NCBI GenBank assembly: GCA_018825725.1
Contig: JAHKBC010000324.1
Coordinates: 1 to 11,052, forward strand
Origin: Candidatus Omnitrophota bacterium
GTDB taxonomy: Bacteria; Omnitrophota; Gorgyraeia; Gygaellales; Profunditerraquicolaceae
Reading direction: 5' to 3'
DNA length: 11,052 nt
Part shown: piece by piece, positions 2 to 11,052 of the stretch
Layout of the letters: every line of letters starts with the position of its first letter
Numbering within the stretch: the first letter of the stretch is position 1
Translations under genes and position numbers: made by a program
Notes under the pieces: model-generated
Seen by the model: only the letters and a program-made list of their open reading frames with translations
The model's database searches: none
Told to the model about the DNA's origin: nothing

Positions 2-625
2 CCGTCGGATTTCCTTATGACCGAAGAGGGAAGAAGCGTGATTCTTTTTGAAAGGGTGCCCGGACAGGATTTATTCTCGCTGATAGGTTCCCAAGAGTTG
101 TCTCTTAGGGAAATACTGCAGATAATTCGTTCTTGCGCCCAGATCCTGGAATCTGTGCATGAGGCTGGGGTTATTCATTGGGACGTTAAACCCGGCAATA
201 TATTTTTTACTCCGGAATATAAGGTCTTTCTGCACGATTTTAAACTCGCCTTTACCAGTAAAGAAGAATTTATCAGAAGGCGCCTGCAGCAATACGGAAC
301 AATCGCCTACGCGTCTATAAAAAGAATGGGTAACGTTGGCCGTGAAGCTAAGCATGAATATTTTTATTCTCAGGCAGATGATATCTATTCTTTAGGAATG
401 ACTTTAGCTTATATGTTAGCTGTAAATAGCTACAAGGAGAGTGATTCTCTTTCGGATCCTTCTCGCGGAAGGTTGTTAAGTATTATGAATTCCTTTGTAA
501 AAAAAGGACAAATTCCTCAGGAGTTATTTGATCTGATATATCTGGCTATCCATGATGGTGAAAGCCGATATAAGGATGCCGGCCAGTTTATCTCTGCTTT
601 AAAAAAAGTAGAGGAGTCAGGGAAT
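2..625 (+). other. Ser/Thr protein kinase domain, C-lobe only, with altered HRD and DFG motifs
   Basis: Numbering is from the Met at base 17. The hinge-like LFERVPGQ (10-17) is followed by a helix and the catalytic loop HWDVKPGN (54-61), where kinases have HRDxKPxN. The catalytic Asp56 and Asn61 are kept, but Arg55 is Trp. The metal-binding motif is DFK (74-76) instead of DFG: the Asp is kept and the Gly is Lys. The activation-segment end reads GTIAYASI (94-101). ASI in place of APE recalls the casein kinase 1 group, though the rest resembles bacterial PknB-type kinases, including DDIYSLG (121-127, the Asp before helix F) and the closing ESRYKDAGQFISALKKVE. The glycine loop and beta-3 Lys lie outside the window. 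Activity is uncertain: the key acidic residues remain but two near-invariant neighbours have changed. Confidence 0.85.
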
Positions 626-3600
626 ATTAAGCCCGCAGAAAAAACTCTCCGAGAAACTGAAGAGCTCTATAAAGGCAATAGGATAAAACCGTCCAGCTCG
701 CCGCTCAGTATTCTTATCCGGCTTGATAGAGAAGATTCTGTAAGCCCCGGTGTATCAAGCAGGGGTTTTGCGCGGATATTGCTAGGGTGGACAGAATACC
801 TTTTAAAATTATACACGGATAAAAAAAGAGGCATTATAAGATGGGATACTAATTTATGTTTACCTTATTATTTATACCGAACAAGCTCGGGCGCCAAGTT
901 ATATAAACATTACGATACTCCTACTGCATATTACCTTAGTTTATGGCAAAAATGGCAGGAGAAAAATGCAATTTTCTTCCCTGAATGGATATTAAAAGTC
1001 AATCTGTTAGACAAATTTATCCCCGCCACAGCATATAGTATTGTTTCTTTTCAGAAAAAAACTCTTGTTCTATATATTAAATTCTTTTGTTGGAATAGCC
1101 GCGGCATATATCATCTTATTTTCTCTCAAGTTGCTCGTGCGGTGGGTTCTATTAATAGTGGCGATGGTGCATCCGGTATCGGTGCCAGCTCGCCGGCGGA
1201 GGCAAGCGGTCGCCTCGGAGACAGAAAAATTAGCTTTCCTGAAAATCGATTTAGCTCTTTTATTATCGAGCTAAATCTTTTAGAGCCAGTAGGACAAGAA
1301 AACGGCACAGAGCATTTAACTTACGGTGTAGTTTTTGACGGGAATTATATGTTAGGTAATTGGGTTGAAGTGATTCTGCGTCGGGAGGATTCAGAGTTAG
1401 AACTTCATGTAATTTCGGTTTCTAATGGCCGGCAAAAAGGATATTTTTCGGGAGTAGGAGAGAGCATTATCAATTTCTTGCGCAAGGAGGCCCTGGCCAA
1501 TCGTTGGTCTTTGCGTTTTACCAATATCCAAAGCCGTACCCTCGCAGAATTTATTAAACGCTACAGCAAGCAAACAAAAATAGCCCAGGAAGAAGGCCGG
1601 GGTTATGATGACAAGGCTATAACTTGGTTCGGCCAGTCCGGATGTACAGTAGTCGCTTATCCTAAGGCCGACGAAGAATTCAGGAATGAGTTTCTCAATG
1701 AGTTGAGAGAATATGTTAAATATGTTGCTGTATATATTCACGAATATTGTAAAAAGAAGGCCCCTTTTGCCCAGGACTATCCTTTTACCTGCGGTATTAT
1801 CAATTTAATCTTATGGGGGCTGTTGGATAAAAGATTCCGCCATAAAACCGATATAAAATTTTATATTGCAGAATACTTCAGGATTAACAAGATGTTAGAT
1901 ACCGAATATATGGCAAAATACCATCTTTTTCTGAAAATAAAAGATACCCTTATCCAAGATACATATTATGTAAGCATAGCTGATGCCATTATTGATAATT
2001 TAAGGCCCATTCGAGATAAGAAAGAATATTTTTGGGATGAGTTGTTAATATGGATTATTGCTCGGCAAAAGCCCATAATTTTCAGGATAAAAAATGAAAG
2101 GCAATTAAGGCGTTATCTACAAGAACCCCTTTCTTTAGGTGACCGCTCTGAGGCAGGCTATTCTTATTTTTTTGAGGAATTCCTAGAAGAATACTCCCAT
2201 CTTGCTATTTCCAGCTCCTCGGTGGCCGGAAACATCGCTGTTGCATCGCCGCTGAATAAAGGAACAACTGGTTCCAGATGTGTTTCTACGACATTCCAGA
2301 GGCCAGCAAACCTTTTAGGCCCTGGATATGAATGGATAGAAATAGGCGGGGATTTTACTTCTTTCGAGAAACTCGCTTTCGACAGAGAAACAACTTTAGG
2401 GATAGTCAGAATAAGAGACGGTGATTTAAAAGGTGAAAAAATTTTTATAATGGCGAAGCGTACGCATTGCCACGAAATAGATTTTCGGCTTATTAATACG
2501 GCCAGAGAAACAGAGAGAGAGTTAAATAACAGCGCTCTAGGGAATACTTTGAGCAGGATGTTTTATTACTATAGTCCAGGCGGGCGGGCGAGCATAAGCT
2601 TTCCGAGCGTTGATGATTCTTACAGAAAAAAAGGCATCTCGTATCTTTTATTTAACCTGTTTCTAAAAGAGATTGTAACGCAGCAAAGAGATACAGAAAA
2701 TAAGATTATAATTCCTGTAATTCTATCGGTTATAAATCCCTACCTTGCTAAAACAGTAAAAAAATACGGATATGGGTGGTATGTAGAAGAATTTGAAGGA
2801 GCGGGCAGGATTATAGCAATACAAAATGACGCAAGGCAATTAAACTTCTCCGGGAATATTGCAATTACCAAAGAAGGGTATATCTATCTTAATGGGGTAT
2901 TATTCATTAAGGATATTATAGAAGGTTGTGTTATCGCTACTGATTATAAGGGCTCAGGCAAAGAAGAGGTTCTGTTTGGATTTACCAAAGGGGAGAAGGT
3001 CCTTGTGCGTTATGTTATGAAGGATCTTTGTTTATTTAATGCCCGCCTAGCTGCAGTTCCTGAAAGAAAGTTAATTGGCATAGATGAGGCAGCCGTTAGT
3101 TCGCCCCTGTTGACTTGCAGCCTTTTGTCCCTTGCCCCAACGCGGATAACCTGCTCTAGCCCGGTATCGGATATTGCCCTGATTGCGGGCGCGGTAGGGT
3201 TAGGTATCGCTGTTGCGGCACTGCAAATCTGGAAAAGTAAAAGAGAAGTTGCCGCTATGCAGCAGGAATGGAAAATGAACTTCGAAAAAAGGCCTCAGAC
3301 TACAAGGAAAACCGGAACCCTATTACCCATGCACAGAGATTGCGAGAATTGTTTTCAAGCCGAGACCTGTCTTCACTTAAGAAAGAATTTGAAACCCGCC
3401 AGCAGCCCATTAAAAAACGTAGAAGCTTTATTCAGCAGCTCAACAGATAAAGGGTTAGGAAATAAATACCTTCTAAAAGCGGCGTTTTCGCCATCCATCC
3501 AAGATAAAAAGGTGTCTTGTTGGGGAACGTCCACAAATTTCGCGTCACCATATTCCCAGGCGCATACATATCTGAATCGTGTTGACTGGGCTTTAGAGAT

Positions 3601-4780
3601 AGCGGCAAGAGTCGAACAAAGGCATTTTATTCATATTCCTCCTCAACTTGTGGCCATACATCCCATTCTTGAGTTTGGCATCAACAACAATCTGTATAAA
3701 ATCGGCGGGCCATATTACCTGGTCATAACCCTGAATAATTCAAAAAAATTATATTGGGGAGGCCAGCATAATCTTTCATACGCATTCTTTTTCGAGCATT
3801 ACAAGGAGAGAGTGAAAGAGATTATTGATAGCGGCGGTATTGCCTGGAGGGCTTTTGACGCGCATACAGACACAGGAGATTTTGATGTTGATAACCTAAT
3901 TCAGACAAGTAAGCGCAATGCAAATTGGCAAGAAGAAGTAAAGAGAGGTATCCTTGATCTGTCCCCAGGCGGCTACTTAGGTTATTTACTTTCAACCGAT
4001 ATACCAACCGTAGCCTCAAAGATTATCATATCATTCGACGAATTAAGGGAATTGGCCCGGCAGCGCATTCAAGGCGGAGTTTTTGACCTGGATATAGATA
4101 TTGTCCCCGGGTTATCATCAAGGGCAGATAAGTACAATATATGGTCCGGTTTTATTGTCATGCTGCCCTATCTTGTTTCTATCGCTAGATTAAGCGATCT
4201 GTGTTTTTTTATTAATAGCTCAGAAATAAGCTTTAGTTATGGAGCCATTGACGCTGTTATGGCTGCGCAATGCAACGGATATTTAATAAAGAATATTGCA
4301 GAATGCTCGATGAGCCTAAATTTACAAAACGCAAGTTCAGCCGTCCCAATAGTGGATGTAGCTGTTTTTATTCTTGGCGGATTGTTTTTTCTTGCCTGGC
4401 GCAGTGCTCTCTCGGGGAAATGGTGGTTAAGCAGATTAGAGCAAAATGCAGCCCTTAGGCCAAGGCCGGGTTCTGACAACGCCAAAGTAACCTCTGCGCC
4501 GGGCGTAAGTAGTTCTACTTTAATTGCCATGAATTCATGGCTAGGCTCGGTAATAGAAAACGAGTTCATGGGGGTTCTTGCTGTTCGGCATAAGTTCAAT
4601 CAGTGGACTAAAGACAAAAATATAATAGTTTTTCTAAAGACGACAAAAGAGAATATTGCGGATTTAGCCCGAATTTATAAGCAAAAAGGAGTTGCCGGAA
4701 AGCAAAAAACTGAATGTTGGGATAATGACTATTGGAAAACCAGGACAGATTACTGGAAAGATTTTAACAGGATTATATAA
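2..4780 (+). CDS. Giant multidomain protein, 5'-partial: kinase, GNAT, ureohydrolase-fold and membrane modules
   Basis: This frame is open from the left window edge to the TAA at 4778-4780, giving 1,592 codons. The ATG at 17 is the first Met in view but not a credible start: five codons before it are open, and the sequence after it is already the middle of a kinase domain whose N-lobe must lie upstream. Order of parts: kinase C-lobe, unrecognised block, GNAT-like, Cys/His/Asp domain, GNAT, beta-rich segment, membrane segment, ureohydrolase fold, membrane segment, unrecognised tail. Linkers rich in Ser, Ala and Pro (SSSP, ASSP, SSPL, SSPV) separate them. The same frame reopens directly after the TAA for another 6.2 kb, and the TAA falls inside a domain, so this is probably the left part of one longer gene. 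Three stretches (1055-1146, 3285-3417, 4704-4802) look out of frame. Module calls rest on motifs; the joint function is unknown. Confidence 0.9.
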   Translation, partial: PSDFLMTEEGRSVILFERVPGQDLFSLIGSQELSLREILQIIRSCAQILESVHEAGVIHWDVKPGNIFFTPEYKVFLHDFKLAFTSKEEFIRRRLQQYGTIAYASIKRMGNVGREAKHEYFYSQADDIYSLGMTLAYMLAVNSYKESDSLSDPSRGRLLSIMNSFVKKGQIPQELFDLIYLAIHDGESRYKDAGQFISALKKVEESGNIKPAEKTLRETEELYKGNRIKPSSSPLSILIRLDREDSVSPGVSSRGFARILLGWTEYLLKLYTDKKRGIIRWDTNLCLPYYLYRTSSGAKLYKHYDTPTAYYLSLWQKWQEKNAIFFPEWILKVNLLDKFIPATAYSIVSFQKKTLVLYIKFFCWNSRGIYHLIFSQVARAVGSINSGDGASGIGASSPAEASGRLGDRKISFPENRFSSFIIELNLLEPVGQENGTEHLTYGVVFDGNYMLGNWVEVILRREDSELELHVISVSNGRQKGYFSGVGESIINFLRKEALANRWSLRFTNIQSRTLAEFIKRYSKQTKIAQEEGRGYDDKAITWFGQSGCTVVAYPKADEEFRNEFLNELREYVKYVAVYIHEYCKKKAPFAQDYPFTCGIINLILWGLLDKRFRHKTDIKFYIAEYFRINKMLDTEYMAKYHLFLKIKDTLIQDTYYVSIADAIIDNLRPIRDKKEYFWDELLIWIIARQKPIIFRIKNERQLRRYLQEPLSLGDRSEAGYSYFFEEFLEEYSHLAISSSSVAGNIAVASPLNKGTTGSRCVSTTFQRPANLLGPGYEWIEIGGDFTSFEKLAFDRETTLGIVRIRDGDLKGEKIFIMAKRTHCHEIDFRLINTARETERELNNSALGNTLSRMFYYYSPGGRASISFPSVDDSYRKKGISYLLFNLFLKEIVTQQRDTENKIIIPVILSVINPYLAKTVKKYGYGWYVEEFEGAGRIIAIQNDARQLNFSGNIAITKEGYIYLNGVLFIKDIIEGCVIATDYKGSGKEEVLFGFTKGEKVLVRYVMKDLCLFNARLAAVPERKLIGIDEAAVSSPLLTCSLLSLAPTRITCSSPVSDIALIAGAVGLGIAVAALQIWKSKREVAAMQQEWKMNFEKRPQTTRKTGTLLPMHRDCENCFQAETCLHLRKNLKPASSPLKNVEALFSSSTDKGLGNKYLLKAAFSPSIQDKKVSCWGTSTNFASPYSQAHTYLNRVDWALEIAARVEQRHFIHIPPQLVAIHPILEFGINNNLYKIGGPYYLVITLNNSKKLYWGGQHNLSYAFFFEHYKERVKEIIDSGGIAWRAFDAHTDTGDFDVDNLIQTSKRNANWQEEVKRGILDLSPGGYLGYLLSTDIPTVASKIIISFDELRELARQRIQGGVFDLDIDIVPGLSSRADKYNIWSGFIVMLPYLVSIARLSDLCFFINSSEISFSYGAIDAVMAAQCNGYLIKNIAECSMSLNLQNASSAVPIVDVAVFILGGLFFLAWRSALSGKWWLSRLEQNAALRPRPGSDNAKVTSAPGVSSSTLIAMNSWLGSVIENEFMGVLAVRHKFNQWTKDKNIIVFLKTTKENIADLARIYKQKGVAGKQKTECWDNDYWKTRTDYWKDFNRII
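692..703 (+). repeat. SSSP linker motif, copy 1 (tccagctcgccg)
   Basis: The codons tcc agc tcg ccg encode Ser-Ser-Ser-Pro, followed by Leu. The motif marks the boundary between the kinase domain and the next, unrecognised block. Four other close DNA copies lie at 1184, 5519, 8576 and 10709. Confidence 0.8.
1055..1146 (+). other. Suspected compensated frameshift hiding a membrane segment
   Basis: After the seven A's at 1055-1061 the assigned frame reads an odd peptide containing KFFCWNSRG. The frame one base along, entered if one A is dropped, reads FVGIAAAYIILFSLKLLV, a convincing transmembrane helix. Adding one G to the GGG at 1144-1146 returns to the assigned frame just before a Gly/Ser linker and an ASSP motif. 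Membrane segments also sit beside linker motifs at 3170 and 4343, which supports the corrected reading. This may be a sequencing error or a real pair of indels. Confidence 0.5.
1184..1195 (+). repeat. ASSP linker motif, copy 2 (gccagctcgccg)
   Basis: The codons gcc agc tcg ccg encode Ala-Ser-Ser-Pro inside a Gly/Ser/Ala-rich linker. It matches copy 1 at 11 of 12 bases, including every serine codon they share. It separates the putative membrane segment from the GNAT-like domain. Confidence 0.75.
1248..1277. repeat. 10-bp perfect inverted repeat with 10-nt loop
   Basis: The arms gatttagctc (1248-1257) and gagctaaatc (1268-1277) are exact reverse complements around a ten-base spacer. The sequence just downstream is T-rich (tcttttag). 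It lies in coding sequence upstream of the GNAT-like domain. The stem has only four G/C pairs in ten, so a terminator or attenuator role is speculative. Confidence 0.6.
1289..1600 (+). other. GNAT-like N-acetyltransferase domain (weak)
   Basis: The block has strand-rich sequence, then KGYFSGVGESIINFLRKEAL with the glycines of GVG at residues 479-481 (from the Met at 17). This resembles GNAT motif A (Q/RxxGxG/A) followed by its helix. Next comes LRFTNIQSRTLAEFIKRY, which fits motif B, where an Asn precedes a helix ending near an aromatic residue. The usual arginine of the pyrophosphate loop is displaced, so cofactor binding may be weak or lost. GNAT domains move an acetyl group from acetyl-CoA to an amine; no substrate can be named. 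The call is less secure than the second GNAT at 2321. Confidence 0.4.
1670..2195 (+). other. Candidate transglutaminase-like (papain-fold) Cys/His/Asp domain
   Basis: Cys592 (numbered from the Met at 17) begins a hydrophobic helix in FTCGIINLILWGLL, as the nucleophilic Cys does in transglutaminase-like and papain-like folds. Downstream, YHLFLKIKDTLIQD places His636 on a strand, with Asp643 and Asp648 a few residues later, matching the usual Cys, His, Asp order. The spacing of about 44 residues between Cys and His is plausible for the fold. No tryptophan signature supports it, and the rest of the block is unfamiliar. If active it could cleave or cross-link amides. It may instead be an unrelated helical domain. 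Confidence 0.3.
2321..2836 (+). other. GNAT N-acetyltransferase domain
   Basis: Motif A is clear: SVDDSYRKKGISYLLFNLFL, with SYRKKGIS at residues 868-875 (from the Met at 17), matches the acetyl-CoA pyrophosphate loop (R/QxxGxG/A) apart from Ser for the last small residue. It is followed by the expected helix, then a strand (PVILSV) and the motif B Asn-Pro helix ending in KKYGYGW, the usual aromatic hairpin. The domain lies between a Ser-rich linker (tccagctcctcg at 2210 and ASPL at 2242) and a short beta-rich segment. Acetyl transfer is expected from the family; the acceptor is unknown. Confidence 0.65.
3170..3235 (+). other. Predicted transmembrane segment
   Basis: A run of about 21 residues (DIALIAGAVGLGIAVAALQI) is free of charge after its first residue and rich in Ala, Gly, Val, Leu and Ile. 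It is followed by the basic WKSKR. It comes straight after two linker motifs, SSPL at 3097 and SSPV at 3155. A Gly/Ala-rich buried helix is possible, but the basic stop-transfer-like end favours a membrane helix. Confidence 0.6.
3285..3417 (+). other. Suspected compensated frameshift between two A6 runs
   Basis: Between the A6 runs at 3285-3290 and 3412-3417 the assigned frame gives a Cys-, Thr- and Pro-rich peptide (RDCENCFQAETC) unlike its surroundings. The frame reached by adding one A at the first run gives a natural charged, helical sequence with AQRLRELFSSRDLSSLKKEF. Dropping one A at the second run returns to the assigned frame. The assigned frame does give an ASSPL at 3398, which argues the other way, so this case is less certain than the other internal ones. 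Confidence 0.4.
3560..4310 (+). other. Ureohydrolase-fold (arginase/UPF0489-like) metal-binding domain
   Basis: Three motifs of the arginase superfamily occur in order, numbered from the Met at 17. WGGQHNLSY has His1251, where arginases have GGDHS. AFDAHTD has Asp1281, His1283 and Asp1285, the DAHxD motif. GVFDLDIDIV has Asp1357 and Asp1359, the SFDxD motif. All six metal ligands of a binuclear manganese site are present. The Asp to Gln and Ser to Asn changes in GGDHS, and the LDID form of the third motif, recall the UPF0489 family more than true arginases. The domain is about 250 residues, slightly shorter than an arginase. A hydrolytic role on a C-N bond follows from the family; the substrate is unknown. 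It is flanked by membrane segments at 3170 and 4343. Confidence 0.65.
4343..4402 (+). other. Predicted transmembrane segment
   Basis: The sequence VPIVDVAVFILGGLFFLAW is strongly hydrophobic apart from one Asp near its start and is followed by Arg and Lys residues. It comes directly after the Ser/Ala linker NASSA and the ureohydrolase-fold domain. A Ser/Pro-rich linker (SAPGVSSST) follows about 40 residues later. Confidence 0.6.
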
Positions 4781-4802
4781 AATCAGCGAGTCTTTCACAG
4801 GG
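4704..4802 (+). other. Suspected compensated frameshift that creates the TAA at 4778
   Basis: From the A6 run at 4704-4709 to the TAA the assigned frame is un-protein-like, rich in Trp, Asp and Asn (CWDNDYWKTRTDYWKDF). If the run has one A too many, the sequence reads VGIMTIGKPGQITGKILTG and continues through the position of the stop. If the GGG at 4800-4802 lacks one G, this joins smoothly to DVVLVAISRGGSINEP in the frame of the right half. The same pairing, an A-run one too long and a GGG one too short, repairs 1055-1146. A direct repeat (agcaaaaa at 4680 and 4701) lies at the first site. Confidence 0.6.
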
Positions 4803-4807
4803 ATGTT

Positions 4808-7800
4808 GTGTTGGTTGCTATATCACGCGGTGGTTCGATAAATGAGCCATGTATAATTGAAGGATTGCTATTAGGCCTTGTTTTTTCAAAGAGCTCTTTT
4901 CAATTTGAGGCAGTTATCCAAGCTGCGGCATGGAATCTGCAAAAGAAACACTTGCTGGCCAAAGGTTTTAGAGACGAACATCAGGCGAAGTTTCCAGGCA
5001 TTGGGGCTGACCTGCAGATGGTTTTAACAGAGTATATTCTCAGATATGCTTTTCGTAAGCGGGGAAATAAGCCGCTTGATGATGATACATTGATACGTAA
5101 GCTTATGCCTGATACGAAAAGCGGCGAGGATCGTGTTGCTTATTACATTCGGTTTAATCCGGTTGAGTATAGGCGTATCCATAAAAAAGGCAATTATTTT
5201 ATTTCGGCAAGAAGCGCTTTGCAATGGAACATATATCAGTTGCTGCGTTATTCTTCAGAAGGCTCTTTGACAGTAAATGAGATCTTAGGGCAAATGGGGC
5301 TTACCGGGTATTATTCTTCGGATTATTTCTATAATGGGAACGATGGTTTATTGGATGATATGGGAAAGGATGAGCGTTCGGATTGTCATATAGTCGCTAA
5401 ACAATCGGACAGAGGCATTGTTTTTACAACAGAGTTTAATTCGCCTTCTATCCAGCCTATAGGCTGGAGCGCAAACTCTTTGGCGGGCAAAACAACTATC
5501 TCCGCGTTGAAAGAGCGTTCCAGCTCGCCGATGCGCTTAACTAAACCGATATTTTATTATGAGTCATTTTCAGATGCCGTTTTCACGCCTGTTTTTCTTA
5601 GCGAAGAAGAGATTACCGAACTAGAGCAGAAAGTAAGAATATTTATTATCGGAGAAGAGAAGCTTAAAGAGCAATCTTTAAGTAAGATTCTAGGCGATCC
5701 TGGCTCTGGGCGCTATGGTAAGTCTATGATAGCCGCAAGGTATGAAAATCAGAAAGTTTATACTATTTTCTGGCAATATATGAAGGACCCTGTTGTGGTA
5801 ACGGAATTAGAAAGAGGGGAGATGTTGGTGGCTCCCTACTCGTCATTTTCTAACTTATTTTTGGCAAGATGGGTAAACCAGGCTAGGACTTTTCTAGCTA
5901 TGGGCCATCTCAAGCATAAGGCTAAGATTTTTCAGTTCATTGAGTGGCTAAACCCCGGCATCACTGATATAACGTTATTCTGCCTATTCTATATGCGGAC
6001 GCTTCCTGAAGAAGCAGGGCATATTGATGAAAGTGATAATATCCATAACTTATTGCATAAAATTAAAAGTAAATTTCCCCGGGCTATAATTGAGCATAGA
6101 ATAAGGCCTTACTTAACAGTTCCGAATGAATATATCTTTTTTACTAATCCGCAAGCGTTTGGCTCAGTGCCAGCAGTATATGTGGATTCTTTAGTTCCAT
6201 ACCTTATATCCTGGAAAGAGTTGCAAAAAAACGCGCAGGCTGATGAGCATTTAAAGGAAATTAAGTATTCCTCTAGCGGCATTCTAGGTGAGGGTATCTC
6301 TGAGACGGTGAACAGGCAAAATAAAAGATTATTTGAAAGAGGATCCCAGATACTCGCTCATAGGACGCGTTTTGATGACGATCCCGAGGGCAAAAGAATA
6401 ACCCAAGATTCTCTACGGAAGCAATGGTTTATTAATCTTACTGAAAAAGAAAAAAGGCTGGTGAGAGAGCGCCTTGCTAAGGAATATGAGTCATATGTAG
6501 AAAAGTTTATTCATTGCGAGATACCTGTGTCGTTTATTCAAAAGTTAACAGGCGGGATGAAAGCTGGCGACGATGGCCTAAGAGATCTTACTGCTGAGTT
6601 GAGGCTAGCGCTTTGGGAAGCTATTAATGCTATTGAGCAATGGCATCCTTATTTTGGGGGATTTTCCACATTTTTAGTTAAATATCTAGTTCGCGCATAT
6701 AAGAAATTTGCATACAGAGTAAATAGAAAGATATTCCGCGAGATAAATGATCACAACATTTTATCAATAGATATTCCCAGGGGCAATCGAATGGATGAAG
6801 AGATTATAAAGGCAAAGTTTCTCCAGGCTTTAGATTCTCTTAAAAATTTTCTCCTTTCTGATAGAAAACTATTTAGAGAGCCTAGGGTTATAGATTACTC
6901 AATAGACGGATACGGAAGATATATATTAAAAGCGTTAAAAATGGACAATCAAACCTACGCGGATTTGGCGCGGATGCTTGGTATTGAGCGCGAGAATATA
7001 AGGCAGGGCATCAGAAAAATTGAAGGTTTCGTAAGAAGGCATTCAGATAGGCCGCTGTTGCCTTCATTATGGCAGATACCCGGTATTATTGTTGAGTTGC
7101 AATTAAAGGCGCAGGAAATTATACAGCATAAAGTTATGCAAACGGACGAAACTGCTATTGCGCGATGGGCGAAAATGCTGCAAGCATGGCTTGGCCTTCA
7201 GCATTTCGCAATAGAAGGCGCGCCAGAGATTGCCTTAGAATTAAACGGTAAAAAGAGCGCCTGTGTAACGCTTAAAAATTTTGTGCTATACATTAATCTT
7301 TCCCATATCAAGGTAAACAACAGCGCCTATCGCCGGTATCTTCTGCGTCCCCGGCTGAGTAATGGACAGTTGTTAGTAGATGTTTTCTTTCCGGATGCCT
7401 CAAAAAATCTATCGACTTTATATTTTGCCAGGCCGGAGAATAAAAGCCATAAGCGTAAAATAAAGTTATCCAGCAAAATTTTTAAGCCGATAGATCAGGC
7501 AAAGCGGCAATGGGATGATTTTGTTAATTTTACCGTAGATAACCATCCTACACTTTCGTTAAAACGAACGGCTTATAAACCGCAGGCATTTGTAGCGTTT
7601 GGTATTACTTTTAGGATAGATAAGACGCAGAATCCGCGCATCCCCGGAGAAACAAAGGTATTTATAGGCGGGTATAGGCTAGACAAAAATGCTCCGCTAT
7701 TTAAGCATGTTTTTTATATTCCGGTGAGAACGCTCTCTAAAAATAGCCTTATTGTCGTAGTCAGTTCAAGCGAAGAGATGAACGATGCCAGCGTACAAGA

Positions 7801-10800
7801 CATTTATTTTTTAAGAAGATACAAAAAAGATGAAGGCGGCACAATGGTCCAGCGTTGTAGGATTAGCGCGTTTGCCAGGCTTAAACCGCCATATCCAAAA
7901 AAATGTTTTATGCATCATTCTATTCAGCCGGCATTATTAAGGGAGATGTTTTGTGAATTCATATCTAGTTCAGAAAGGCAGAATTTGCATAAAACCATGG
8001 ATAGGCTGACTTCTGAAGTTGAGGCGTATGAAAGAAAGAAAGCCGAAGGCCGGTATGGGTTAGCAGATATATACGAGCACTGGTTTGCTGTTTTTAGAAT
8101 GTATCTGATTAAGCTCACTGCTTTTATAGATTATGAGCAGGAATTTAGGTTTAGGCAGGAACTCGCTCAACCGGGGCTCTGTACTTCTGACCTTATCAGT
8201 ATTCCAAATGGGAAAGCGCCCCTTACGGCCAGTTCGGCTATTGGCAAAGCGAAATTAGGCGGCGCGGTTTCGGAAACATCGCCACTAAATTCATGCAGTT
8301 CCTCAGCCAGTTTTAATAAAATTTCCTATCTGCCGTATTTTATCGCAGAAAAAGGCATAAGGCTAATTGTCGCTGAAGGGTTACATGACCCGCAATGGTT
8401 TAAGCGCAATAGCTTTTTGCCTGATATTTTTGTGTTACTTAAAGCAGAGCGGCGTGCCTCACAGTTTGCAATTATTGAACGCTTATTTTATGATGAATAC
8501 TTCAAATATTTCTCCGAAGAGCCGTCTCATTTAGCAAAGGGAGCGCTTAAAGAACGCGAGGATATTATTGCGCAGTCTAGCTCGCCTGCGCGCAAGGAGT
8601 CTGATTTTTTTACTGTCATATTAGAAGGCAAAAAGGGCCCGCATGCCAGAGTGCATCTTCTTATTATCAATCTCATTGATATATTTCAGAAGAGATTAGA
8701 GTGGGATTTTGAGCAATATCCTATAATCATGGGCCATGAGGGTTATCCGGAAGACTCATTTAGTTTAAAGAGCGATTTAGACGGTGATCATGCATTTACA
8801 AGATGGACTTCTATGTTGGTGAATAAAGGAGTAACACATTTTAAGTTTGCGATTAGTATTCGCGGGATACGGGAAGAAGAAGCCAAAGATATAAGTGAAA
8901 CAATCCGTATAGCATTTGGATTTATAAATAAAATTGCGGGCGCGCGGATAAGCGAGATAGCGCCGTTAAGAGGAAAATTTATTCAGGAAATAGAAACCCG
9001 GTTGCATAACATCAAAGAAAGATTTGGTGTATTTGGGCCCGCCAGGAGAATACAGGAGAGTAATCAAAAAAAACAATCTAGTTCAGTTATATGGGGTTGC
9101 AACTTTAAAGATTTATCCGATTCAGCCAGTACGCAAGATAGAAATAAAAATACCGATCCGGTTGAGATAGCTAGTCCGGGGATGGGCACTAAAGAAGTTC
9201 TTATAAACTTCCGAAAGCTTTTATATCGCAATTTTACTCCGGAATATCTGCAAAAGGTTATAGATTCTGCTCAGGATAAAGAAGAATCAGTTGATGGTAT
9301 TTTATCGAAACAGCGGTTGCACATAATTGCCGTTGCTCAGGCCATAGCCTTGCTCAATGGCAATCCCGGAGTTGAATATGCCAAATACTTGCCTGATGTC
9401 CAGAAGAGTTTGAATGTGCCTCTAGCCGGATTAAGAAAGTTTTATCGCGTTTTTGAACATGATATTACCGCAATGATTCCTGTTTTAACAAAGAGGCCCC
9501 TACCGTTTATCAAAGATAAAAATCTGGAGCAGATAACAGAACGGGTCCTTGAGGCTATACTGAAAGCGGCTGGCGGTAAAAAAAGTTTAGCCGCCAGAAT
9601 ATTTGGCTGCTCTTTAGGAAACATTTATCTTTTATTGAACAAAAGAGAGAGCCAGCAAATATTGATCATACGAGATGTTAAGATACTCATGCAAATATTA
9701 GGGATGTCTCAGAAAAACCTGGCGATATCCATGAATATTTCTCCTACTGTTACAGCTTTCCGCTGGTTGAGCGAAGAAAATTCGTACCATATTCCTCAAA
9801 AAAGATACGGTGAGTTGGGAAGAATATTCGGGGAAAAGGATTGCTTTGTTTCAAAAAAGGCATATGGCAGGCTGTTGCGCAGAATACTCTTTCATCCGCT
9901 GTTAGATATGAACGCAGGGCTTCCTCAAACCGAAGATTCTTTTGAAGGTTGCGATAAGAACTATCTGCGCCTGAGATATAACATAAGAGGGTTTTCTACG
10001 GATAAATTGTTTACTCTGGCGGTAAAAGCCCTTTCGCTGCGCTGGGTTCAAAAGCTGTCAGAATGCCTTGAAAAAAGAAGCGCAGCAGAAGAAAAACTCC
10101 TTACCCAGATCAAGGATATCAGTTTGTTTCACTTTGCAAAATTAACCCCTGCTCAAAGAAATACGCATGTGTTTACCGCGGGGCTGCTATTATTAAGCCT
10201 TAATAGCCAGATTAAATTGCAGGCAAAACAGATAATGATACATTGGTTTATGAATGAAGCGCAAAAATATTTCGACCGGACCATTGCGGAAAACGCAATC
10301 GTAGACAGCGTAAATAATTACTACGTGTTTAATAATGGGTTTGGGAACTTCTATAAGGGGTTCTTATCGTATCTTAGAATATCTATGAAAAAGAGGTCAA
10401 GTGAATATATAGGGCCGAGAATATCAAATGAATATAAAAAGTTTTTACTAATGAGCCAGCCATCTAATGTGGAAACGGATAGAATACTTGTCGGACAGGA
10501 AGCGCTAGCTGTATTCAGCGCGGCGCTGGCAGATTTAGCTTCCGCAGACCGGCTGTTGATTGTCAAATATCTTGCTGAGGCTAAAGAATTAACAATTCCG
10601 GAATCAGGGCGCGTGTCAGTAATATTAAAACAATTAAGGGCTGCCTTAGAAGAAGCCGGCATTGAAAATAGCGATTTCTTAACAGGAAACGGGTTTTCAA
10701 TTGAAGAATCCAGCTCGCCATTTAGTTTTCCCCGTTCCAAACAGTTGGCAGTAGATAATCCTGCTGATTTAGCGGAAATTATGCGGAAAGAAATGCTGTC

Positions 10801-11052
10801 TATTCCCTTGGCGAGCGATAAAACAGCCGGATCGCCGGTAACAGTCGAACGCGATATGCTTAAGAAACTGGCCGTTGAACTTGCCAACAGGGACGGATCT
10901 GAAGCCACCAGTCGGGGACGGTTCTTGAACCAAAACAGAAGCGTCCCAGGATTGGGGAACTCACACGGTAGGAAACAAGTTTTTATCTATAGAATTGGCA
11001 GTTGTTATTGGCAAAAAAATACAACAGACATTATGTACGGCCTTGCCAGATA
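4808..11052 (+). CDS. Giant multidomain protein, 3'-partial: sigma-70-like, HPr-like and HTH modules
   Basis: The frame is open from just after the TAA at 4778 to the right edge, about 2,081 codons with no stop. GTG 4808 is the best formal start, because a weak AGGG lies five bases upstream; the first in-frame ATG is at 5018. I think this is not a real start: the frame is the same as that of the upstream CDS, and DVVLVAISRGG looks like the middle of a domain. Order of parts: unrecognised block with a possible winged-helix segment (5218-5310), SSSP, unrecognised block, sigma-70-like domain, long block that looks beta-rich (7070-8160), Ser/Thr linker, unrecognised block, SSSP, HPr-like domain, Ser-rich linker, Fis-like HTH, XRE-like HTH, weak second sigma-like region, SSSP. 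The last 40 codons look out of frame. No signal peptide is visible. Confidence 0.75.
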   Translation, partial: MLVAISRGGSINEPCIIEGLLLGLVFSKSSFQFEAVIQAAAWNLQKKHLLAKGFRDEHQAKFPGIGADLQMVLTEYILRYAFRKRGNKPLDDDTLIRKLMPDTKSGEDRVAYYIRFNPVEYRRIHKKGNYFISARSALQWNIYQLLRYSSEGSLTVNEILGQMGLTGYYSSDYFYNGNDGLLDDMGKDERSDCHIVAKQSDRGIVFTTEFNSPSIQPIGWSANSLAGKTTISALKERSSSPMRLTKPIFYYESFSDAVFTPVFLSEEEITELEQKVRIFIIGEEKLKEQSLSKILGDPGSGRYGKSMIAARYENQKVYTIFWQYMKDPVVVTELERGEMLVAPYSSFSNLFLARWVNQARTFLAMGHLKHKAKIFQFIEWLNPGITDITLFCLFYMRTLPEEAGHIDESDNIHNLLHKIKSKFPRAIIEHRIRPYLTVPNEYIFFTNPQAFGSVPAVYVDSLVPYLISWKELQKNAQADEHLKEIKYSSSGILGEGISETVNRQNKRLFERGSQILAHRTRFDDDPEGKRITQDSLRKQWFINLTEKEKRLVRERLAKEYESYVEKFIHCEIPVSFIQKLTGGMKAGDDGLRDLTAELRLALWEAINAIEQWHPYFGGFSTFLVKYLVRAYKKFAYRVNRKIFREINDHNILSIDIPRGNRMDEEIIKAKFLQALDSLKNFLLSDRKLFREPRVIDYSIDGYGRYILKALKMDNQTYADLARMLGIERENIRQGIRKIEGFVRRHSDRPLLPSLWQIPGIIVELQLKAQEIIQHKVMQTDETAIARWAKMLQAWLGLQHFAIEGAPEIALELNGKKSACVTLKNFVLYINLSHIKVNNSAYRRYLLRPRLSNGQLLVDVFFPDASKNLSTLYFARPENKSHKRKIKLSSKIFKPIDQAKRQWDDFVNFTVDNHPTLSLKRTAYKPQAFVAFGITFRIDKTQNPRIPGETKVFIGGYRLDKNAPLFKHVFYIPVRTLSKNSLIVVVSSSEEMNDASVQDIYFLRRYKKDEGGTMVQRCRISAFARLKPPYPKKCFMHHSIQPALLREMFCEFISSSERQNLHKTMDRLTSEVEAYERKKAEGRYGLADIYEHWFAVFRMYLIKLTAFIDYEQEFRFRQELAQPGLCTSDLISIPNGKAPLTASSAIGKAKLGGAVSETSPLNSCSSSASFNKISYLPYFIAEKGIRLIVAEGLHDPQWFKRNSFLPDIFVLLKAERRASQFAIIERLFYDEYFKYFSEEPSHLAKGALKEREDIIAQSSSPARKESDFFTVILEGKKGPHARVHLLIINLIDIFQKRLEWDFEQYPIIMGHEGYPEDSFSLKSDLDGDHAFTRWTSMLVNKGVTHFKFAISIRGIREEEAKDISETIRIAFGFINKIAGARISEIAPLRGKFIQEIETRLHNIKERFGVFGPARRIQESNQKKQSSSVIWGCNFKDLSDSASTQDRNKNTDPVEIASPGMGTKEVLINFRKLLYRNFTPEYLQKVIDSAQDKEESVDGILSKQRLHIIAVAQAIALLNGNPGVEYAKYLPDVQKSLNVPLAGLRKFYRVFEHDITAMIPVLTKRPLPFIKDKNLEQITERVLEAILKAAGGKKSLAARIFGCSLGNIYLLLNKRESQQILIIRDVKILMQILGMSQKNLAISMNISPTVTAFRWLSEENSYHIPQKRYGELGRIFGEKDCFVSKKAYGRLLRRILFHPLLDMNAGLPQTEDSFEGCDKNYLRLRYNIRGFSTDKLFTLAVKALSLRWVQKLSECLEKRSAAEEKLLTQIKDISLFHFAKLTPAQRNTHVFTAGLLLLSLNSQIKLQAKQIMIHWFMNEAQKYFDRTIAENAIVDSVNNYYVFNNGFGNFYKGFLSYLRISMKKRSSEYIGPRISNEYKKFLLMSQPSNVETDRILVGQEALAVFSAALADLASADRLLIVKYLAEAKELTIPESGRVSVILKQLRAALEEAGIENSDFLTGNGFSIEESSSPFSFPRSKQLAVDNPADLAEIMRKEMLSIPLASDKTAGSPVTVERDMLKKLAVELANRDGSEATSRGRFLNQNRSVPGLGNSHGRKQVFIYRIGSCYWQKNTTDIMYGLAR
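5451..5468. repeat. 18-nt perfect palindrome inside the coding frame
   Basis: The sequence tccagcctataggctgga equals its own reverse complement across all 18 bases. It encodes part of the linker region before the SSSP motif at 5519. It could form a short hairpin or be a dimeric protein-binding site. A perfect palindrome this long is uncommon by chance in 11 kb, but one copy proves nothing. Confidence 0.6.
5519..5530 (+). repeat. SSSP linker motif, copy 3 (tccagctcgccg)
   Basis: It is identical at all 12 bases to the copy at 692, more than 4.8 kb away, and encodes Ser-Ser-Ser-Pro. It separates two unrecognised blocks of the right-hand protein. Confidence 0.8.
6480..7055 (+). other. Sigma-70-like domain (regions 2 and 4)
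   Basis: ELRLALWEAINAIEQWHPYF followed by GGFSTFLVKYLVRAYKKFAY follows the region 2 pattern, where sigma factors have GxxGLxxAxxxFDxxxGxxFxTYAxxxIRxAI. A region 4-like part follows: LQALDSLKNFLLSDRKLF, then a helix-turn-helix, YADLARMLGIERENIRQGIR (6956-7015). This matches the family's LxEIAxxLGxSRERVRQIE, including the Arg-Gln that starts the recognition-helix end. The region 2 part lacks the aromatic-rich -10 melting stretch of primary sigma factors, so it looks like a divergent alternative sigma. A linker SSSG (6269) lies upstream. A sigma factor fused inside a giant protein would probably need cleavage to act, which is inference. Confidence 0.6.
7070..8330 (+). other. Unrecognised block of the giant protein, probably beta-rich, with Ser-rich linker
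   Basis: I recognise no family here. Short strand-like pieces alternate with basic loops (for example FVAFGITFRID, KVFIGGYRLD, HVFYIPVRTL, SLIVVVSSS), which suggests a beta domain, possibly repeated. A helical segment follows from about 7935, with ERQNLHKTMDRLTSEVEAYE as a possible short coiled coil. A linker with TASSA, TSPL and SCSSSAS closes the block (8226-8316). Confidence 0.4.
8576..8587 (+). repeat. SSSP linker motif, copy 4 (tctagctcgcct)
   Basis: It encodes Ser-Ser-Ser-Pro and matches the other copies at 10 of 12 bases; both differences are silent third-position changes. It precedes the HPr-like domain directly. Confidence 0.8.
8612..8935 (+). other. HPr-like (PTS phosphocarrier) domain
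   Basis: The start reads VILEGKKGPHARVHLLIINL, which lines up with the HPr N-terminus (V.I.N..GLHARPAA.LV.L). The His at 8642-8644 takes the place of the phosphorylated His15 and is followed by the usual Ala-Arg. The far end, FKFAISIRGIREEEAKDISE followed by TIRIAFGF, matches the closing strand and helix of HPr (I.I.A.G.DE..A...L), which supports the call independently. The domain is about 108 residues against the usual 85 or so, with an insertion in the middle. The Leu before His is Pro and the Pro after Arg is Val. No other PTS protein is in the window, so a regulatory role through His phosphorylation is a guess. Confidence 0.55.
9527..9648 (+). other. Fis-type helix-turn-helix
   Basis: VLEAILKAAGGKKSLAARIF followed by GCSLGNIYLLLNKR fits the Fis-family pattern: a helix, a GGK/GN turn, the S/TxAAxxLG helix and a recognition helix ending in a Leu/Lys/Arg cluster. 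In NtrC-type regulators such a domain closes the protein; here it sits inside a longer chain, directly before a second HTH. A DNA-binding role is inferred from the family. Confidence 0.5.
9655..9836 (+). other. XRE/Cro-type helix-turn-helix
   Basis: VKILMQILGMSQKNLAISMN followed by ISPTVTAFRWLS matches the XRE pattern of xRxxxGxSQxxLAxxxGxSxxxVSxWE, with SQKNLA and MNISPTVTAF as the two HTH helices. The trailing HIPQKRYGELGRIFG fits the last helix, where XRE domains often read IPxxxxxxLAxxF. It follows the Fis-like HTH with hardly any spacer, forming a tandem DNA-binding unit. Confidence 0.5.
10084..10665 (+). other. Weak second sigma-70-like segment
   Basis: GFGNFYKGFLSYLRISMKKR resembles the end of sigma region 2 (phe-rich, then a long amphipathic helix). 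ALAVFSAALADLASADRLLI resembles the start of region 4 (ALxxLxxxDRxxI). The expected HTH is replaced by a short stretch, IPESGRVSVILKQLRAAL, so DNA binding at a -35 element is doubtful. It could equally be an unrelated helical domain. The call rests mainly on similarity in layout to the stronger sigma domain at 6480. Confidence 0.25.
10709..10720 (+). repeat. SSSP linker motif, copy 5 (tccagctcgcca)
   Basis: It encodes Ser-Ser-Ser-Pro and is identical to copies 1 and 3 except for the last, silent base. It precedes the final segment of the window. Confidence 0.8.
10932..11052 (+). other. Suspected frameshift near the right edge
   Basis: After the A4 at 10932-10935 the frame assigned to the CDS reads QNRSVPGLGNSHGRKQVF, which is unlike the rest. 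The frame reached by dropping one A gives TEASQDWGTHTVGNKFLSIE followed by a hydrophobic LAVVIGKK and is open to the edge. A further run of seven A's lies at 11013-11019, where the frame could change again. Where the protein really goes next cannot be decided from this window. Confidence 0.4.

Follow-up and report, generated by a model that had tools for sequence, protein, structure and literature searches.

A contig of an uncultured Omnitrophota bacterium as a probable internal fragment of a giant mosaic gene with Ser-Ser-Pro linkers

Contig JAHKBC010000324.1 of assembly GCA_018825725.1, analyzed here over its full 11,052 nucleotides and hereafter called the window, belongs to an uncultured bacterium of the phylum Omnitrophota and is probably an internal fragment of a giant gene coding for a mosaic, mainly soluble multi-enzyme chain. 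The kind of gene and the taxon that carries it are firm, and its true length is something that we infer. Modules are joined in one reading frame by a linker of consensus [S/A/V]-S-S-P-[V/L/I/A]. The window is the whole of contig C117 of a 1.57-Mb genome assembled in 363 contigs and 81% complete.

Apart from one TAA codon (Table 1), frame 2 of the window runs open from one contig edge to the other, as a preliminary description of this DNA had stated. Each frame counts ~3,683 codons, and the five other frames contain 119 to 311 stops; the openness of frame 2 is therefore not due to chance. The same description had taken the window for a piece of a giant Omnitrophota gene, rightly so given the open frames found in the same family: 18,962 amino acids (aa) in G012, which is contig DJVP01000012.1 of Candidatus Omnitrophica bacterium UBA6253, 25,332 aa in G081, 16,980 aa in G122 and 38,661 aa in G139 (for the giant frame of G033, counts derive from 46,449 codons read). 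It had also considered the combination of modules to be new, and this seems to be the case as far as sequence comparison goes: part A of the frame, upstream of the TAA, matches 9 of 58 genomes, namely its own, seven through the kinase region and one through the GNAT region, and part B, downstream of it, matches 2 of 98, again including its own. A scan of part A against named genomes gave no match.

Giant open reading frames (ORFs) are already known in the Omnitrophota, so that the window can be regarded as a fragment of a known kind of gene. According to Seymour et al. 2023 (PMC10066038), ORFs over 20 kb occur in 77 of 116 Velamenicoccia genomes, and the giant protein of Velamenicoccus archaeovorus measures 39,678 aa. 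As described there, these giants resemble the window in phylum, extreme frame length, few annotated domains and poor conservation between genomes, and differ in that the giants studied here are mostly cytosolic enzyme mosaics with a Ser-Ser-Pro (SSP) linker. The window itself has few annotated domains and is poorly conserved between genomes; a single frame beyond 20 kb is seen in its same-family relatives, which exceed 50 kb, the window measuring 11 kb with one stop. PMC12057145 cites West-Roberts et al. 2023 for giant proteins of up to ~85,800 aa in Omnitrophota and relatives and for roles in cell-wall degradation and as surface weapons; giant proteins in Omnitrophota are what the two cases have in common, and the cell-wall and surface-weapon roles are where they differ. 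PMC13153191 is silent on giant proteins. Published ideas about what bacterial giant proteins do, as far as found here, centre on surface coats, adhesins and predation.

The Ser/Pro linkers announced in the preliminary description are real. The window contains 8 SSP tripeptides versus ~0.7 expected from shuffles, G012 contains 52 versus 3.3 and G081 70 versus 5.9; judged by composition, the excess reaches 7- to 16-fold in G122, G027, G126, G081, G012 and the window. We aligned 194 SSP contexts from six giants and the window, leaving out G033, and SSP itself is fixed by the selection of the contexts. The residue before it (S/A/V) carries 1.35 bits of information and the residue after it (V/L/I/A) 1.32 bits, every other position carrying at most 0.26 bit. 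Across the six SSP-rich frames, 86-96% of the SSP are followed by Val, Ile, Leu, Ala or Met (for the window, 7 of 8), compared to 35-38% for any Pro of these same frames. Both serines are encoded by AGY as well as by TCN codons, and therefore it is the peptide, not the DNA, that is conserved at the linker. None of the 122 SSP of G012 and G081 falls inside the 51 Pfam stretches (one per region) recognized in these two giants, where 11.1 and 9.0 were expected (circular-shift P of 0.0012 and 0.0016). The 46 ORFs located beside the G012 giant contain 2 SSP in 17,065 aa, compared to 52 in the 18,962 aa of the giant. As a side observation, the G033 giant, devoid of SSP linkers, carries Pro-Thr repeats (31 PTPT). 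We also considered that transmembrane (TM)-like segments might act as signal anchors after linkers, which found no support: an excess of such segments was seen in one of seven frames (G122, 4 versus 1.4 expected, P of 0.03) and none in G139, G027, G126, G081, G012 or the window.

Pfam scans of the whole G012 and G081 frames, and of parts of the G027 and G126 frames, identified phosphoribulokinase, phosphomannose isomerase, ribulose-phosphate epimerase, carbamoyltransferase, ROK, HAD and RelA/SpoT modules; starch synthase, debranching enzyme, 4-alpha-glucanotransferase (GH77), amylase, CofD, PrmA and phosphomannomutase; radical SAM proteins, methyltransferases, GNAT, histidine-kinase-type ATPases, HTH, HD, PHP and protein kinase; and cation efflux and EamA transporters, a trypsin-like protease and others. 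GH77 was followed across 108 genomes of the family, 92 of which have a match, mostly as a standalone gene of ~600 aa; in eight genomes (G033, G081, G012, G122, G139, G027, G126 and G102) GH77 lies in a frame longer than 5,000 aa, some of these matches being weak or partial. The three catalytic residues are kept in all five full-length giant copies, which are 24-64% identical to standalone copies (the G012 copy covers the first half of the enzyme and stands outside this count). Another 20 giant modules were compared by eye with known motifs (8 further modules stand outside this count), and 19 of them likewise keep their active-site residues, the exception being HD_4 of G012. Separately, the giant GH77 of G033 is 64% identical to the standalone copy of its own genome and 57-60% identical to the copies of four other genomes.

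TM-like segments number 2 in the 18,962 aa of G012, 20 in G081, 36 in G139 and 2 in the window. The low count in G012, together with the enzyme content, argues at least for this giant in favour of a soluble chain that bears enzymes and against a coat. Other Omnitrophota giants have been proposed to be surface or secreted proteins that serve as coats, adhesins or weapons of predation. Such a role is in our opinion unlikely here, even though PMC10066038 proposes it for V. archaeovorus and other giants and reports peptides of the V. archaeovorus giant to be more abundant in attached cells, and even though the window, G081 and G139 have TM-like segments. Besides the near absence of such segments from G012, cytosolic enzymes, regulators, radical SAM proteins and inner-membrane transporters dominate the Pfam content of G012 and G081, with no adhesion family in these two frames (G033, G139 and G122 were outside the scan). 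Pfam found no adhesion family in the window either. Pfam listed no carrier, condensation, adenylation or ketosynthase domain of nonribosomal peptide synthetases and polyketide synthases, either in the window (E up to 1) or, at E up to 0.01, in the full G012 and G081 frames and the portions of G027 and G126 that were scanned.

The single stop of the window was analyzed with a codon-usage score trained on the window minus the stop region, the frames being compared in 3,658 overlapping segments of 75 bases. The 13 segments with the largest excess of the +1 frame over the used frame all start between positions 4706 and 4745, the used frame scores lowest in 15 segments that all start between 4727 and 4778, and the best value of the +2 frame is that of the segment at 4766. 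Milder excesses are common elsewhere, the +1 frame being ahead in 134 of the 3,658 segments and the +2 frame in 143. We interpret this pattern as two compensating frame changes, with the reading probably leaving the frame just before the TAA and returning to it just after; these changes may be real or stem from the assembly. The TAA is thus most likely a local frame disturbance rather than the end of a gene, an interpretation that is supported, not proven. A less probable organization, for which we see a small chance, is that of two separate long genes in one frame, the first ending at the TAA and the second starting at the GTG found 27 bases on, which has AGGGA four bases upstream; low scores of the used frame right at the TAA would also be compatible with a short intergenic gap. 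However, a real gene end does not predict a +1 frame that peaks before and across the TAA, and the same type of linker occurs on both sides of it. A second, smaller +1 coding signal was noted at 10,928-10,973, beside the contig end.

Table 1. Features of the window and copies of the giant-specific hairpin (window coordinates unless a locus is named)
Feature	Position	Strand	Basis
Part A of giant frame, 1,592 codons, runs off contig edge	2..4777	+	frame reading
TAA, sole in-frame stop	4778..4780	+	frame reading
Part B of giant frame, 2,090 codons, runs off contig edge; earliest possible start GTG 4808	4781..11050	+	
+1-frame coding signal; probable compensating frame-change pair around TAA	4706..4819	+	codon-usage score
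Ser/Thr protein kinase domain, N-lobe beyond contig edge	20..439	+	Pfam PF00069 8.2e-14; PDB PknA 8.8e-12
Linker SSPL	695..706	+	
Linker SSPA, start of GNAT-like module	1187..1198	+	
GNAT-like module, starts at SSP linker	1187..1672	+	fold and match to UBA6253 giant
Linker ASPL	2243..2254	+	
Linker SSPL	3098..3109	+	
Linker SSPV, immediately 5' of TM-like segment	3155..3166	+	
TM-like hydrophobic segment	3173..3229	+	hydropathy only
Linker SSPL	3401..3412	+	
Candidate ureohydrolase-like module, DAHTD and DLDID by eye	3401..4456	+	without support from searches or model
TM-like hydrophobic segment	4349..4405	+	hydropathy only
Linker SSPM	5522..5533	+	
Sigma-70-like module	6569..7024	+	TIGR02937 E 3.1e-5; Sigma70_r4 E 0.006, both under cut-off
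51-residue stretch common to window and G081 25,332-aa frame, 49-50% identity	8351..8503	+	
Linker SSPA	8579..8590	+	
Weak HTH_8 match	9524..9613	+	Pfam E 0.024, under cut-off
Linker SSPF	10712..10723	+	
Hairpin copy	L099 (G000 C318) 1898-1938	-	
Hairpin copy	L018:3363-3403	-	
Hairpin copies	L021:6638-6678 and 16431-16471; L037:17636-17676; L049:8819-8859; L053:257-297		
Further hairpin copies	loci among L102-L166		

Window modules were checked by Pfam (E up to 1), NCBIfam, a PDB sequence search, predicted structures and Foldseek. Only kinase families pass the Pfam cut-off in part A, and none does in part B. Hanks-type kinases carry the motifs HRDxKxxN and DFG, their full catalytic set comprising the Lys of VAIK, the Asp of HRD and the Asp of DFG. 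The window kinase, a sequence match over the C-lobe of Hanks-type Ser/Thr kinases, reads HWDVKPGN and DFK, such that by eye both catalytic Asp are present and the Gly of DFG is replaced. Like the bacterial kinases PknA and StkP, it keeps the Asp, Lys and Asn of HxDxKxxN and the Asp of DFG; unlike them, it has HWD for HRD and DFK for DFG and is one module of a mosaic. The GNAT-like module (part A residues ~396-557) is 39.5% identical (E of 5e-28) to a module of the UBA6253 giant, which contains two such relatives, and all three copies begin at SSP.

The list of module types drawn up in the preliminary description survives in part. Its kinase is confirmed by Pfam and PDB matches. Its GNAT module is supported by the predicted fold and lacks a Foldseek match at E <= 0.001, and its sigma-70 module has a weak sequence match that stays, at 23.7 bits, below the curated TIGR02937 cut-off of 42.9. 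We could not recover the others: the transglutaminase-like module has no Pfam match and a low-confidence model, the ureohydrolase fold has no such match and a model that is unusable (predicted local distance difference test score of 33), HPr has no match, and the HTH corresponds to an HTH_8 hit under cut-off. Relatives of the sigma-like module, the ureohydrolase candidate and the GNAT module with its next segment were searched among 5.8 billion proteins, with no match at E <= 0.01. A tRNA search of the window found none, and no Rfam family reached its cut-off there.

The G012 frame, the G081 frame, the window and window-genome contig C312 were each compared with themselves and with one another, and the homologous stretches were merged into 23 pairs. 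In five of them both copies start at a linker (0.44 expected, P of 0.0002) and in four both copies end at one (0.44 expected, P of 0.002). Modules are duplicated and shared between giants, partly as linker-to-linker units that make up a minority of the homologous pairs. The clearest example is a 401-aa duplicate of G012, 62% identical, in which SSPV linkers flank both ends of both copies. Its ratio of nonsynonymous to synonymous substitution rates (dN/dS) is 0.10 (NG86) or 0.20 (LWL85), a rough estimate with a saturated NG86 dS of 3.0, and 229 of its 427 differences lie at third positions. The dN/dS is 0.34 or 0.36 in a G012 tandem pair and 0.14 or 0.37 in a G081 duplicate that is not bounded by linkers, dS being saturated in two of the three duplicates compared. 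Together with active sites that are mostly kept, these values, although rough, show purifying selection on modules of the same-family giants. Decaying fusion debris, in which captured gene copies would drift without function in a tolerant frame, is a very unlikely explanation, since the high divergence of the window modules (three without a relative found), the persistence of standalone copies of two families and the HD_4 of G012 that by eye seems to lack its motif are set against stop-free frames of 16,980-38,661 aa, dN/dS of 0.10-0.37 with the saturation just mentioned, and catalytic residues kept in GH77 copies and in nearly all other modules judged.

Several observations weigh against a linker-joined, working enzyme chain encoded by one giant gene. 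The window is just 11 kb long and has a stop, and its GTG with AGGGA would suit two ordinary long genes; no true start is visible in any giant frame; and three window modules are without relatives in the protein collection searched. The linker is weak or missing in some giants: G033 has 9 SSP in 46,449 codons, followed by Val, Ile, Leu, Ala or Met in 2 of 9, G139 has 12 in 38,661, and none occurs over ~2,500 aa of G012 that include several enzyme domains. A linker is therefore not required for a giant. As to duplication, 16 of the 23 pairs neither start nor end at a linker on both sides, the 23 are not mutually independent since several repeat one another, and neither start of one strong G081 duplicate (15581-15938 / 16643-16991) lies within 400 aa of a linker. 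Finally, standalone GH77 and ribulose-phosphate epimerase exist beside giant copies, and the giant is therefore not the only source of these activities. The idea that giants hold the sole copy of housekeeping enzymes was accordingly dropped, given the standalone ribulose-phosphate epimerase of G012 and the standalone GH77 of G012, G033 and G081.

The product is most likely a multi-enzyme chain, mainly soluble and facing the cytoplasm, and it may be a polyprotein that is cleaved at its linkers. A short motif with nothing conserved around it looks like a recognition site, and for this reason we suggest that the sharply bounded linker may be recognized by something, most simply a protease that would free the modules; the fixed hydrophobic residue suggests more than a bare flexible linker, which would not need one. 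Other readers of the linker are possible, for example a kinase acting on Ser-Pro. We also put forward, tentatively and with doubts about the whole, that giants of this class could be cellular polyproteins, cut by a protease at [SAV]SSP[VLIA], in which many working housekeeping-type enzymes, regulators and even transporters would be made together, with a hairpin described below controlling processing, translation or growth. Viral-type polyproteins similarly consist of one chain with many modules and a short repeated motif between them; the present case differs in that the gene is cellular, has many more modules and is known from its sequence alone. The repeated short site between modules that is a feature of polyproteins is found here and is not universal among giants, as G033 and G139 illustrate. 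If cytosolic enzyme chains with a recognizable linker do exist, the choice between one machine and many proteins becomes testable through cut ends at the linker. Two protease-like modules were noted in this context: residues 178-334 of L053 (G126) match Trypsin_2 (E of 1e-10) inside an SSP giant and form a candidate self-processing module, and G012 has a weak S8 match (E of 0.006).

Giants of this Omnitrophota class also carry a hairpin with the core ACCTTCCGTGGCTGGTGGGG, which is uncatalogued, strongly covarying, in sense orientation and found almost only inside giant ORFs. On contig C318 of the window genome, an SSP-bearing piece, two ORFs meet at an array of 46- and 38-base repeats; this array holds a 20-base core that is found again, with at most 3 mismatches, in giants of five further genomes, where it forms a hairpin tip. 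A model built from 7 copies was extended to 61 copies (58 distinct) from 46 loci. In the 61-copy set, whose alignment was fitted to the model, compensating double changes occupy 131 cells (shuffles, 39; slid controls, 14-55), and 91.7% of cells are paired (shuffles, 75%; slid controls, 42-60%). Any double change at all is seen in 8 pairs, which is not above shuffles (98 of 500 reach 8). The hairpin is read in all three phases, which indicates that it is conserved as nucleic acid.

The model matches 50 of 108 family genomes (E <= 1e-3) and 54 of 384 genomes of a phylum sample (E <= 1e-4), all 54 in the class of the window genome, the listing not giving the share of the 384 that lies outside this class. 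Forty-five loci were fetched, ~7 of them from the model's own copies, and 5 were dropped as their core was not near the middle; among the remaining 40, the hairpin lies in a sense frame without a stop from end to end of the locus in 36 and in an antisense frame of more than 300 aa in none. We further inspected 20 genomes that had contributed no sequence to the model, each through a stretch of 13-20 kb chosen where the contig left enough room; four of these stretches include 49-100 N. In 19 of the 20 stretches the hairpin is spanned by a sense ORF of 4,000 aa or more, and 35 of the 36 hairpin copies in these stretches lie within ORFs of at least 1,000 aa. No Rfam family fits the hairpin (the two listed matches have E of 0.6 and 0.84, far under cut-offs), and no viral contig contained the exact 20-base core. 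The hairpin is absent from the window (best E of 0.57) and is present in its genome at C318.

The hairpin may be a mobile element, a processing site or a regulator. As a nucleic-acid marker, it would find giant genes in fragmented assemblies, and it would give a handle on how such long transcripts and genes are managed. In C318 and G099, stacked left-arm units measure 46 bases and right-arm units 38 bases, the sum of 84 being a whole number of codons. The stacked arms, at L099:1830-2065 and L153 (G099), would fit an element that inserts into its own middle, and the array of C318 coincides with the frame change between the two ORFs. The literature entries listed on Omnitrophota giants, mostly titles and the beginnings of abstracts, with preprints and most subscription papers outside their coverage, contain no description of the linker or the hairpin, and neither is mentioned in the passages of PMC10066038. 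Linker grammar, enzyme content with kept active sites and giant-specific hairpin are undescribed there, and may nonetheless be published.

Other contigs of the window genome were also considered. The idea that many of them are pieces of giants was not retained, with two candidates (C123 and C318) among 23 contigs: C123 is open throughout without linkers, C318 is the SSP giant piece mentioned above, and the remaining 21 were judged by their longest ORF alone. On C123 (L079), the minus strand has one frame open throughout (1,084 aa), without SSP linkers, that by eye is repetitive and barrel-like. On C312, a further long frame that bears a kinase and two ASPL linkers ends within positions 1-3045 of L020, and genes named by eye as pyrR, pyrB and pyrC come after it; this frame is possibly the 3' end of the giant to which the window belongs.

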